Source: Fusobacterium ulcerans ATCC 49185 (GTDB lineage: Bacteria; Fusobacteriota; Fusobacteriia; Fusobacteriales; Fusobacteriaceae). Taken from it: DNA of 64,000 nt. Position 1 is the stretch's first letter. Each line of letters opens with the position of its first letter. The notes under the pieces were generated by a model. It was not told the origin of the DNA and ran no database searches. It saw only the letters and a program-made list of their open reading frames with translations. Shown piece by piece: positions 40,082-49,408 of the stretch. The position numbers and the translations under genes were made by a program. The DNA is taken from NCBI RefSeq assembly GCF_900683735.1, contig NZ_LR215979.1:3472001-3536000 (forward strand), written 5' to 3'.

Positions 40082-40448
40082 TTAAAAACATCCCTTCTGA
40101 TAAAATTTTTTAAAAATTAAATTTTTATACTGATATAAAGATAACATCAATTTTAAAATTATTCAAATTTATTTTTTAAAATTGATTTTTATTTTATAAA
40201 AAAATCTCTCTTTTAGTTTTTTATTTAAAACATTTAGAAAAATATTGAAATAAGGGCTTAAATAAAAAAACAAAAAATATCTAATGAAAATAAGATTAAA
40301 AAAGACTTATTTGAAAAAATAAAATACATAATGTTTTAATAGTGAGTAAAATTTTTTTTTATTTTTTTTTTAGATACAAGTTGATATGAAGTGATTAATA
40401 TAGTAGTTTAGGTGTATGATACAAGTTAAAACCTAGTAAAAATCAGTA
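40082..40448. other. AT-rich intergenic region with a repeated 10-mer
   Basis: Extremely AT-rich DNA upstream of the first GntR gene, without a credible gene. The 10-mer gatacaagtt occurs twice (40373-40382 and 40418-40427), 45 nt apart. The second copy ends 21 nt before the -35 box of the GntR promoter, so the pair may be a regulator binding site. Confidence 0.5.
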
Positions 40449-40477
40449 TTGACAACAGTTAAAGGTTGAATTATACT
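40449..40477 (+). promoter_or_regulatory. Promoter of the sulfatase/symporter locus
   Basis: TTGACA (40449-40454), a 17-nt spacer and TATACT (40472-40477), 48 nt before the GntR start codon. Strong consensus match. Confidence 0.8.
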
Positions 40478-40525
40478 TATCGTAATAGAAAAGATAATAT
40501 TATTAAAAACCCATGGGAGAAAATT

Positions 40526-41248
40526 ATGTTTGAGATTAATAAGAAAAGTGAGGTTCCTTTATACCAGCAATTAGTACATAGTATAAAAAAACATATTGAA
40601 GAAGGTACATTAAAAGAAAATGATAAAATTCCTGCTGAATCAGAATTCTGTACTGTATATGATCTTAGCAGGACAACTGTAAGACAGGCTTTAAGAGCTT
40701 TGGAAAAAGAAGGATATATTTATAAACTTCAAGGAAAGGGAAGTTATGTATCATCTCCTAAAATTTATCAAAATCGTTCAGGTTTCAGTAAATTTTATGA
40801 TGATATGACGAGCCTAGGAAAAATTCCTGTTTCTAAAATATTATCACTGAAAATTAAAAAGCCAAATACTCTTGTTAAAGAGAGAATGAACCTTTCTGAT
40901 GATGGACTTATATGTAAGCTTGTATGGATAAGATATGGGAATGATGAAGCTTTAATCTATGAAACTATTTATCTGAACTACTCTTTAGTAGAAGGAATTG
41001 AAAATATTGATCTCAAATCAAAAAAATTATATGATGTTTTAACAAATGAATTTGGAATAAAGATAACTCATGGAAAAGAGTTGTTTTATCCATGTAAATT
41101 GGATACTTCTGAGGCTAAATTTCTGGGATTAAATGAAGGAGATTTAGGAATGAAAGTAGAAAGAACAGTTTTCCAAGGAAGTAAGGTTTTAGAATACACA
41201 AAATCTACAGTGAGAGGAGATAGGTTTGTTTATACAACGAATTTTTAA
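40526..41248 (+). CDS. GntR-family regulator with UTRA domain (HutC type), first copy
   Basis: A 240-residue regulator. The start at 40526 (ggaga upstream) is preferred to an in-frame TTG at 40466, which lies upstream of the predicted -10 box and so would not be transcribed. Residues 1-75 form the GntR winged helix (VPLYQQLVHSIKKHI and CTVYDLSRTTVRQALRALEKEGYIYKLQGKGSYV). Residues about 90-235 form the UTRA ligand domain. HutC/NagR-type proteins sense sugars or sugar phosphates. It precedes the symporter by 32 nt and probably controls the locus. A paralogue lies at 44575. Confidence 0.93.
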   Translation: MFEINKKSEVPLYQQLVHSIKKHIEEGTLKENDKIPAESEFCTVYDLSRTTVRQALRALEKEGYIYKLQGKGSYVSSPKIYQNRSGFSKFYDDMTSLGKIPVSKILSLKIKKPNTLVKERMNLSDDGLICKLVWIRYGNDEALIYETIYLNYSLVEGIENIDLKSKKLYDVLTNEFGIKITHGKELFYPCKLDTSEAKFLGLNEGDLGMKVERTVFQGSKVLEYTKSTVRGDRFVYTTNF

Positions 41249-41280
41249 AAATCTCCATTGAAATAAATTAGGAGGGAAAA

Positions 41281-47546: not shown

Positions 47547-48398
47547 ATGTTAGTTTCAACAAGACAATTATTGTTAGATGCTCAAAAGAGAAAATATGCT
47601 GTTCCAGCTTTTAATGTTCACAATATGGAAACAATTCAAACTGTAATAGAAGCAGCTTCTGAATTAAAATCACCAATCATTGTAGCTGCAACACCAGGAA
47701 CAATGAAATATGCAGGAGCAGAATTTTTTATAAAATTAGTGGAAATATGTTCAGAAAAATATGATATTCCCATAGCAATGCACTTAGATCATCATGAAGA
47801 TTATAATGAAATAGTAAATGCTATTGATATAGGAACAAAGTCAGTAATGATTGATGCTTCTCATTTAGATTTTGAAGAAAACATAAAAAAAGTACAAATG
47901 GTAGTGGAATATGCCCATAAATTTGATGTTACAGTTGAAGGAGAATTAGGAATACTTGGAGGGCAGGAAGATGATCTAGTAAGAGATGATAAAGACAGCA
48001 AATATACAAATCCTGCTCAGGCAAAAGAATATGTAGAAAGAACGGGAATAGATTCTCTTGCAGTAGCAATTGGAACAGCTCATGGAGTATATAAAGAAGA
48101 ACCAAAACTGGATTTTGAAAGACTTGCAGAAATAAGGGCAGTAGTAGATATTCCCTTAGTTTTACATGGAGCTTCAGGAGTTCCAGCAGATCAAGTAAAA
48201 AGAGCAATAGATTTAGGGATAACAAAAGTAAATATTGCAACAGAATTAAAAATGCCTTTTGCTGATACTTTAAGAGAAGTATTAATAAATAATCCTAATG
48301 AAAGTGATCCAAGAAAGTATTTTGGACCTGCTAAAGAATCAATGAAAAAAGTGGCCATTGAAAAAATATTAATGTGTGGAAGTAATGGAAAGGCGTAG
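47547..48398 (+). CDS. Class II tagatose/fructose-bisphosphate aldolase
   Basis: A 283-residue zinc-dependent aldolase of the KbaY/GatY/AgaY type. Metal and catalytic features are [13 protein letters not shown] near residues 76-88, [24 protein letters not shown] (zinc His) and [10 protein letters not shown] (zinc His), followed by KVNIATELK. It splits tagatose- or fructose-1,6-bisphosphate into dihydroxyacetone phosphate and glyceraldehyde 3-phosphate. Its place between AgaS and a PfkB kinase argues for tagatose-1,6-bisphosphate. It has a ggagga site and is cytoplasmic. It ends 2 nt before the kinase gene. Confidence 0.92.
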
Positions 48399-48400
48399 TT

Positions 48401-49345
48401 ATGAATAAAATTTTAACAGTTACACTTAATCCAGCAATAGATGTAAGATACAATATTGAAAAAATTGTGCTGGGAAATGTAAATAGAACTTCAACTATTG
48501 AAAAAAATGCTGGAGGAAAGGGAATAAATGTAAGCCGAGTAATAAAGCAACTGGGAGGAGATATTCTTTCTACAGGAATTGTAGGAGGATATACAGGGAA
48601 ACTATTTTTATCAAAATTGAATAAAGACAGTATAGAGAATAGTTTTTTAGAAACTGATTTTGAAACAAGAACATGTATAGCTGCAATTGATAAGAGCACA
48701 GGAAAAATAACTGAATTTCTTGAATCAGCTGAGGGAAAGGAAAAAGATTTTGAGAAATTTTTAGAAAAATATATCTCTATTTTAGAAAATGGAGTAAAGT
48801 TAGTATGTGGTTCAGGAAGTCTTCTAAAAGGAATAAAAAAAGACTCCTACAATATTCTTATAAATGAAGCTTCTAAAAGAGGGATAAAATTTATTCTGGA
48901 TACAAGTGGAGAAACTCTTGCTGAAGGGATTAAAGCTGCTCCTTTTCTTATAAAACCTAATCAAGATGAGTTGGAAGATATGTTTAAGAAAAAATTTGCT
49001 ACTTTAGAAGAAATAATTGAAGGATCAAGGGAGATTATAAAAAAAGGAGTAGAAAATGTAATGGTAACTCTTGGAGGAGATGGAGCTGTTTTGGTAACTA
49101 AGAATGAAGTATACAGAGCAACTTTTCTAAAAGTGCAAATAAAAAATACTGTAGGATCAGGAGATTCGACAATTGGAGGATTTGCCTATGGAATTGCTGA
49201 AGGAAAAAGTTTAGAAGAAAGTTTTAAACTGGGAGTAGCCTGTGGAACTACAAATGCAATGCTTGATACAACAGGGAGTATTGATTTAGAAATTCTGGAT
49301 ACTGTATTAAAAAGTATAAAAATAGAGAAAGTATTAAATAATTAA
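48401..49345 (+). CDS. PfkB-family kinase (tagatose-6-phosphate / 1-phosphofructokinase type)
   Basis: A 314-residue ribokinase-family kinase of the LacC/FruK subgroup. N-terminal TVTLNPAIDVRY is the subgroup hallmark, followed by NAGGKGINVSRVIKQLGG (sugar binding). The catalytic Asp lies in NTVGSGDSTIGGFAYG, and the ATP site in VTLGGDGAVLVT. The reaction is ATP-dependent phosphorylation at C1 or C6 of a ketohexose phosphate, here most likely tagatose-6-phosphate to the bisphosphate consumed by the aldolase upstream. It ends the operon; a strong terminator follows. Confidence 0.92.
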   Translation: MNKILTVTLNPAIDVRYNIEKIVLGNVNRTSTIEKNAGGKGINVSRVIKQLGGDILSTGIVGGYTGKLFLSKLNKDSIENSFLETDFETRTCIAAIDKSTGKITEFLESAEGKEKDFEKFLEKYISILENGVKLVCGSGSLLKGIKKDSYNILINEASKRGIKFILDTSGETLAEGIKAAPFLIKPNQDELEDMFKKKFATLEEIIEGSREIIKKGVENVMVTLGGDGAVLVTKNEVYRATFLKVQIKNTVGSGDSTIGGFAYGIAEGKSLEESFKLGVACGTTNAMLDTTGSIDLEILDTVLKSIKIEKVLNN

Positions 49346-49359
49346 GTAAAAAAATTATA

Positions 49360-49408
49360 AAAACATCTGAATTACACAATCTCTTTAAATTGTAATTCAG
49401 ATGTTTTT
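49360..49408. terminator. Strong bidirectional terminator
   Basis: A 17-bp perfect stem (49360-49376 / 49391-49407) with a 14-nt loop and A/T runs on both sides. It ends the kinase-aldolase operon and the convergent GGDEF/EAL gene. Confidence 0.88.

Follow-up and report, generated by a model that had tools for sequence, protein, structure and literature searches.

A conserved Fusobacterium gene cluster joining a cytosolic sulfatase, a YidK-type symporter and AgaS: a possible import-first route for sulfated N-acetylgalactosamine

What is known of carbohydrate sulfatases comes for the most part from systems of the Bacteroides type, in which desulfation takes place outside the cytoplasm. A gene cluster of Fusobacterium ulcerans ATCC 49185 raises the question of what a sulfatase without a signal peptide might do beside a Na+:solute symporter (SSS) and a set of genes for amino sugar catabolism. 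The cluster occupies positions 40082-49408 of a 64,000-nucleotide stretch (the window, whose positions serve as coordinates below) of a complete 3.84 Mb chromosome. The original prediction, made from the sequence of the window, was that a sulfated amino sugar is imported intact by the symporter, desulfated inside the cell and degraded through an AgaS/tagatose pathway. Comparative genomics strongly supports the core of this idea, through the co-occurrence of AgaS with the sulfatase, the proximity of PL8 (chondroitin/hyaluronan) lyases and further sulfatases, an independent assembly of the same kinds of genes and the lack of signal peptides throughout the sulfatases of this genome; the prediction as a whole finds partial support. 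On balance we lean towards a module that scavenges sulfated N-acetylgalactosamine (GalNAc), most likely as the monosaccharide GalNAc-6-sulfate (the 4-sulfate being possible), obtained from host connective tissue or mucus in the form of chondroitin or dermatan sulfate or of mucin.

Downstream of an intergenic, regulatory stretch (40082-40525), eight forward-strand genes follow one another in the order GntR1, SSS symporter, sulfatase, GntR2, ROK kinase, AgaS, class II aldolase and PfkB kinase. All eight family assignments hold in Pfam and NCBIfam profile searches, bearing out the gene content and order as first read. The comparison of gene order across Fusobacterium genomes that had been proposed as a check was also favourable: the full eight-gene order recurs across the genus at 60-90% identity and is kept in no fewer than nine further loci of the Fusobacterium group, far beyond chance, the nearest named relatives being Fusobacterium metagenome-assembled genomes with an 84% identical sulfatase. 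The cluster is not a chance neighbourhood. In one close relative (G001, locus L098) the symporter, sulfatase and GntR2 genes are each broken by frame breaks, and these consecutive breaks look like assembly error more than decay.

Among 61 genomes of the Fusobacteriota, a strong AgaS match is present in all 14 that carry the sulfatase vs 5 of the 47 that do not (Fisher 5e-10), a genome-level p value that is inflated by shared ancestry; tabulated by genus, the counts become 6/6 vs 2/17 (3e-4). Sulfatase and AgaS share their gains or losses within several genera of the phylum, and PL8 lyases are likewise found in 9/14 genomes with the sulfatase vs 5/47 without it. Two genomes, unlike this one, have the PL8 lyase of a glycosaminoglycan (GAG) locus beside the orthologous unit: in G009, PL8 and a mannose-type phosphotransferase system (PTS) lie directly upstream of the complete unit and a second sulfatase lies downstream of it, and in G036 the arrangement runs PL8, orthologous sulfatase, second sulfatase, ChrA-like (chromate-transporter-like) halves, maturase, PfkB, aldolase and AgaS. 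In the Leptotrichiaceae genomes G054 and G056, AgaS and a tagatose aldolase are joined to an SSS and a sulfatase other than those of this cluster (26% partial identity for the SSS, 26% identity for the sulfatase), in clusters at L176:6115-11686 and L169:5835-12801 that represent an independent assembly from other subfamilies. Elsewhere AgaS accompanies a BadF-type kinase, an ATP-binding cassette (ABC) transporter, a sulfatase and GH35 (G014 and G021), or a GH112-type phosphorylase (G060, G044 and G052). Judged from such neighbourhoods, AgaS has recurrent ties to sulfated host glycans in the Fusobacteriota. DUF2264 proteins were also seen in sulfatase/PL8 clusters of Vibrio and Leptotrichiaceae (L046, L047 and L168).

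The sulfatase of the cluster (43025-44479; PF00884 at 134.7 bits, and PF16347) is a Cys-type member of the S1 formylglycine sulfatases with the motif C51-S-P-A-R, in which C51, P53 and R55 are invariant across 24 orthologues, and its fold is confirmed by a predicted structure (predicted local distance difference test score 84, predicted template-modelling score 0.90). In that structure the first beta strand starts from residue 5, and the N-termini of the 24 orthologues lie only a few residues away from it; the protein thus has no signal peptide and is therefore cytosolic, so that both the CxPxR motif at Cys51 and the missing signal peptide stand as predicted. One clear anaerobic sulfatase maturase is encoded in the genome (C1:3114249-3115322; TIGR03942 405 bits, cut-off 349). 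The lack of a signal peptide extends to 7/7 CxPxR sulfatases of this genome, five of which adjoin an importer: three are paired with an SSS (the cluster sulfatase and those of L099 and L101) and two lie within mannose-type PTS operons (L102 and L104), the four further loci being at C1:364-383k, 1094-1113k, 3122-3141k and 3739-3758k, respectively. Where a sulfatase lies inside a PTS operon, the PTS may import sugars that bear their sulfate at a position other than C6. The sulfatase of L100 adjoins genes read as GH88, KduD and KduI from sequence, without a family-library run. The closest solved fold to the cluster sulfatase is PsS1_NC (6pt6), an iota-carrageenan 2-O-sulfatase of 28% identity, promiscuous phosphonate monoester hydrolases rank next among solved structures, and no solved enzyme exceeds about 30% identity. 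Placing the sulfatase by fold in a subfamily of known sugar specificity was not decisive, the nearest structures being 18-28% identical. A choline sulfatase was rejected (TIGR03417 153 bits vs a cut-off of 433), and sulfonate use, by analogy with the sulfo-Embden-Meyerhof-Parnas pathway, was dropped, since the gene encodes an ester sulfatase and AgaS indicates an amino sugar.

The symporter (41281-42978) scores 713 bits against the YidK-type model PRK10484, whose curated cut-off is 401, and is 42% identical to Escherichia coli YidK and related to vSGLT. Compared with the vSGLT pocket it carries E88T, K294L and Q428K and retains the A/S/T residues of the Na2 site, and the same pattern runs through the clade of sulfatase-linked symporters, where E88 and K294 are lost, K or R replaces Q428 and the Na2-site residues are kept. 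These changes would be compatible with an anionic sugar as the cargo, although K428 is present in E. coli YidK too, which limits what can be drawn from the pocket.

For each step of the pathway that follows, we infer both substrate and reaction from the gene families and their setting. The symporter would carry the intact sulfated sugar inward with Na+, and the cytosolic sulfatase, its Cys51 converted to formylglycine by the single maturase, would strip the sulfate. The ROK kinase (45410-46363; PF00480) could then form GalNAc-6-phosphate. It belongs to the ROK family and falls below two narrower models, TIGR00744 (242 bits, cut-off 260) and the NagK-type PRK13310 (125 vs 380). A 63% identical relative lies within a PL8/GH88/sulfatase cluster of G056 (L168), and relatives of 51-55% identity in Pasteurellaceae and Cetobacterium were left unused as evidence, several of them lying among housekeeping genes and resembling ROK kinases of a general kind. 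GalNAc-6-phosphate would be deacetylated by NagA: no obvious deacetylase was found in the AgaS clusters examined, a single nagA above cut-off lies elsewhere in the genome, unlinked to the cluster, and E. coli NagA can replace AgaA (PMC3668189). The unlinked nagA could therefore supply this step, in keeping with the earlier expectation that the deacetylase would come from elsewhere or be dispensable. The SIS-domain protein AgaS (46384-47526), the sole AgaS-type gene of the genome, would convert galactosamine-6-phosphate to tagatose-6-phosphate and ammonia. AgaS is regarded as a signature gene of GalNAc and galactosamine use (PMC5583593, PMC3668189) and has been proposed as a galactosamine-6-phosphate deaminase/isomerase (PMC3668189). 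The protein here matches TIGR02815 over its full length at 421 bits, below a cut-off of 529 that no searched Fusobacteriota member passes; its top match in the PDB, 3odp (385 bits), is a putative tagatose-6-phosphate ketose/aldose isomerase, and its PDB relatives are AgaS-like. The PfkB-family protein (48401-49345) may act as the tagatose-6-phosphate kinase that yields tagatose-1,6-bisphosphate. It passes the 1-phosphofructokinase/hexose kinase models (TIGR03168 316 vs 216, TIGR03828 294 vs 292) and lies well below those for LacC (TIGR01231 212 vs 410, PRK13508 224 vs 469), so that by the curated models it is not a LacC. Finally, the class II aldolase (47547-48398) would split tagatose-1,6-bisphosphate into trioses; it exceeds the GatY/KbaY cut-offs (PRK12737 468 vs 383, PRK09195 446 vs 384), narrowly misses TIGR01858 (440 vs 443.55) and has AgaY (1gvf) as its top PDB match.

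The sulfate is probably carried at O6 of GalNAc. Since a PTS phosphorylates its sugar at C6, a blocked O6 would demand a non-PTS importer and, after desulfation, a separate ATP-dependent kinase, as the symporter, sulfatase and ROK kinase would provide; in contrast, G005 has a PTS-AgaS-aldolase-PfkB-PL8 arrangement and lacks a sulfatase of this type, the symporter and the kinase. C6-sulfated GAG sugars have been argued to be unsuitable for PTS import (PMC5430744), and free GalNAc-6-sulfate is a product of GH88 action on chondroitin disaccharides in Bacteroides and an intermediate of chondroitin sulfate breakdown (PMC9067506). A sulfated galactose as the imported substrate, or a disaccharide bearing sulfate (such as Gal-GalNAc or an unsaturated one from chondroitin), would sit well with the GH35 or GH112 (galacto-N-biose type) genes found with AgaS, a sulfatase and an ABC transporter in other Fusobacteriota, and with the disaccharides that PL8/GH88 clusters make. 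The conserved unit, however, includes no glycoside hydrolase, monosaccharides are the usual cargo of SSS sugar transporters (vSGLT family) and galactose would need a LacAB-type isomerase rather than AgaS, and we hold such a substrate to be very unlikely.

Several observations weigh against a module dedicated to sulfated GalNAc and need to be considered together. The sequence and fold of the sulfatase do not fix its substrate, and the scores against kinase models give no preference to GalNAc or tagatose-6-phosphate. No PL8 lyase was found in this genome or its three nearest relatives, and the sugar would therefore have to come from fragments made by others or through lyases of other families. 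The main doubt comes from Pasteurellaceae in which a 65-70% identical sulfatase adjoins an SSS of 58-62% identity: most of these genomes lack AgaS altogether, so the pair must serve a different sugar or feed a different catabolic route there and is possibly not specific for sulfated GalNAc; it may accept other sulfated sugars, with the 6-sulfate of N-acetylglucosamine (GlcNAc) the obvious candidate, or be less specific. These Pasteurellaceae loci (L013-L054) usually hold a maturase and often a TauE/SafE-type exporter, a Crp-like regulator and a mutarotase. The TauE proteins, and the ChrA-like halves that adjoin the sulfatase in G036 and in Anaerococcus, may export the released sulfate. One could thus suppose that the pair handles sulfated N-acetylhexosamines broadly, chiefly GlcNAc-6-sulfate, with a Nag route following in Pasteurellaceae and the AgaS genes added in Fusobacterium for the GalNAc form. 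The retention of the pair with maturase, exporter and mutarotase where AgaS is mostly missing would agree with this, as would the presence of GlcNAc-type S1_46 and S1_11 enzymes among the sugar sulfatases of related fold, although fold ranks at such low identity are not diagnostic (BT1918 is a GlcNAc 3-O-sulfatase; PMC9067506). In the Fusobacteriota searched, by contrast, the sulfatase never occurs without AgaS, and we consider this explanation unlikely.

The last of these points is regulatory: the presence of two GntR genes, and of a hairpin, would allow the cluster to consist of two independent units. GntR1 (40526-41248; PF00392 and PF07702) is a GntR/UTRA regulator of HutC type, most likely starting at ATG 40526 rather than at the longer TTG start 40466, because the latter frame overlaps a promoter-like TTGACA-17-TATACT on the forward strand (40449-40477) that has the top score of the region (11/12) and is kept upstream of GntR1 in relatives. 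A direct repeat GATACAAGTT (40373-40427, with copies at about 40373-40382 and 40418-40427), whose second copy sits inside a TTGTATnATACAA-type palindrome (40412-40427), marks a candidate operator to which GntR1 may bind. These elements are kept upstream of GntR1 in seven aligned Fusobacterium-group loci, L095 having a complete palindrome ACTTGTATGATACAAGT, and occur in one exact copy in the whole genome. GntR2 (44563-45300; PF07702 and PF00392), a second GntR/UTRA regulator, is preceded by its own promoter-like sequence and separated from the ROK gene by a terminator-like hairpin on the forward strand (45298-45329; -18.6 kcal/mol over 61 nt, z -5.4), similar hairpins being found there in most relatives. 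The forward-strand site TTGGTACGGACAA (45341-45353) is a candidate operator for GntR2, which we take to resemble NagR-type operators. In Fusobacterium loci it is conserved ahead of ROK/AgaS, and it also precedes AgaS in the differently arranged L091, L170, L180 and L147, and its exact form occurs once in the genome. AgaR2 motifs, which the site also recalls, are themselves similar to NagR motifs (PMC4694137), and GntR2 may bind here. When the whole genome was searched with both candidate operators, the reversed control pattern gave about as many sites, and the convincing sites were local only. Given the hairpin and the promoter-like sequence of GntR2, the cluster is probably not one operon but two or three transcripts controlled by a pair of GntR regulators, of which GntR1 perhaps governs uptake and desulfation and GntR2 the catabolic genes. 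Separate promoters and regulators and the intervening hairpin would equally suit unrelated neighbours, GntR1-SSS-sulfatase for another sulfate ester and GntR2-ROK-AgaS-aldolase-PfkB for plain GalNAc or galactosamine; the SSS-sulfatase pair is indeed found without AgaS in Pasteurellaceae and apart from AgaS in Leptotrichiaceae, and E. coli YidJ/YidK is such a pair. That reading nevertheless appears distinctly improbable to us in view of the gene order kept across Fusobacterium at 60-90% identity, the shared gain and loss in several genera and the independent units that join AgaS to an SSS and a sulfatase of other subfamilies.

A small DUF202-like membrane protein is encoded upstream of the cluster on the reverse strand (39806-40081), and DUF202 genes adjoin sulfatase genes also in G001, in G013 (L073) and in E. 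coli (yidG/yidH near yidJ). It was rejected as a member of the cluster, being absent from the close relatives G002 and G003.

If scavenging of sulfated GalNAc is the function of the cluster, then importing the sugar first would keep the desulfated product private and would explain how a bacterium without PL8 could use sulfated fragments made by others. We propose more tentatively, and with confidence slightly short of even, that many Fusobacteriota import first and desulfate inside, having recombined cytosolic sulfatases with SSS, PTS or ABC importers and AgaS, and that YidK-type symporters form a previously unrecognised class of sulfated-monosaccharide transporters. The uncharacterised symporter family to which E. 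coli YidK also belongs would thereby gain a candidate substrate open to testing. The pair is also widespread in Pasteurellaceae of the airway and mouth, and its substrate would inform on a nutrient of the host mucosa.

How far the route differs from known systems depends on the comparison made. The statement that most known systems desulfate outside the cell or import by a PTS needs tempering, in that sulfated chondroitin disaccharides are taken up by an ABC importer in Streptobacillus moniliformis, of the same phylum, and a cytosolic sulfatase is predicted there (PMC5430744). Sulfated sugar is imported there before its predicted desulfation, as proposed here, but the Streptobacillus GAG cluster has an ABC importer with a binding protein, taking unsaturated disaccharides, together with PL8 and GH88, whereas here the importer is an SSS, the genome lacks PL8 and the AgaS/tagatose genes are attached. 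The aga/gam systems of E. coli and Streptococcus (PMC3668189, PMC4694137) share AgaS, a KbaY/GatY-type aldolase and the tagatose-6-phosphate kinase role with this cluster, but rely on PTS import and have no sulfatase, in contrast to the SSS, sulfatase, ATP-dependent ROK kinase and missing linked deacetylase here. Streptococcus also has two GntR regulators, one with the transport genes and one with the isomerase/aldolase genes (PMC4694137), a split that the GntR1/GntR2 layout parallels. In the chondroitin sulfate polysaccharide utilisation locus of Bacteroides thetaiotaomicron, GalNAc-6-sulfate is desulfated as the monosaccharide and GalNAc consumed, as proposed here, but desulfation precedes passage of the inner membrane and unsulfated monomers are imported (PMC9067506). 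E. coli YidJ-YidK likewise pairs a putative sulfatase with a symporter of the PRK10484 family; its sulfatase, however, is only 26% identical to the one described here, its unit lacks AgaS, aldolase and kinases, and YidK keeps the vSGLT-type E88 and K294 that the cluster symporter has lost. A literature search for the function of YidJ and YidK found none. Uptake of sulfated GAG sugars by an ABC importer, followed by cytosolic desulfation, had thus already been proposed for this phylum, and a sulfatase/SSS pair was known from E. coli; the Fusobacterium cluster is a variant on these.

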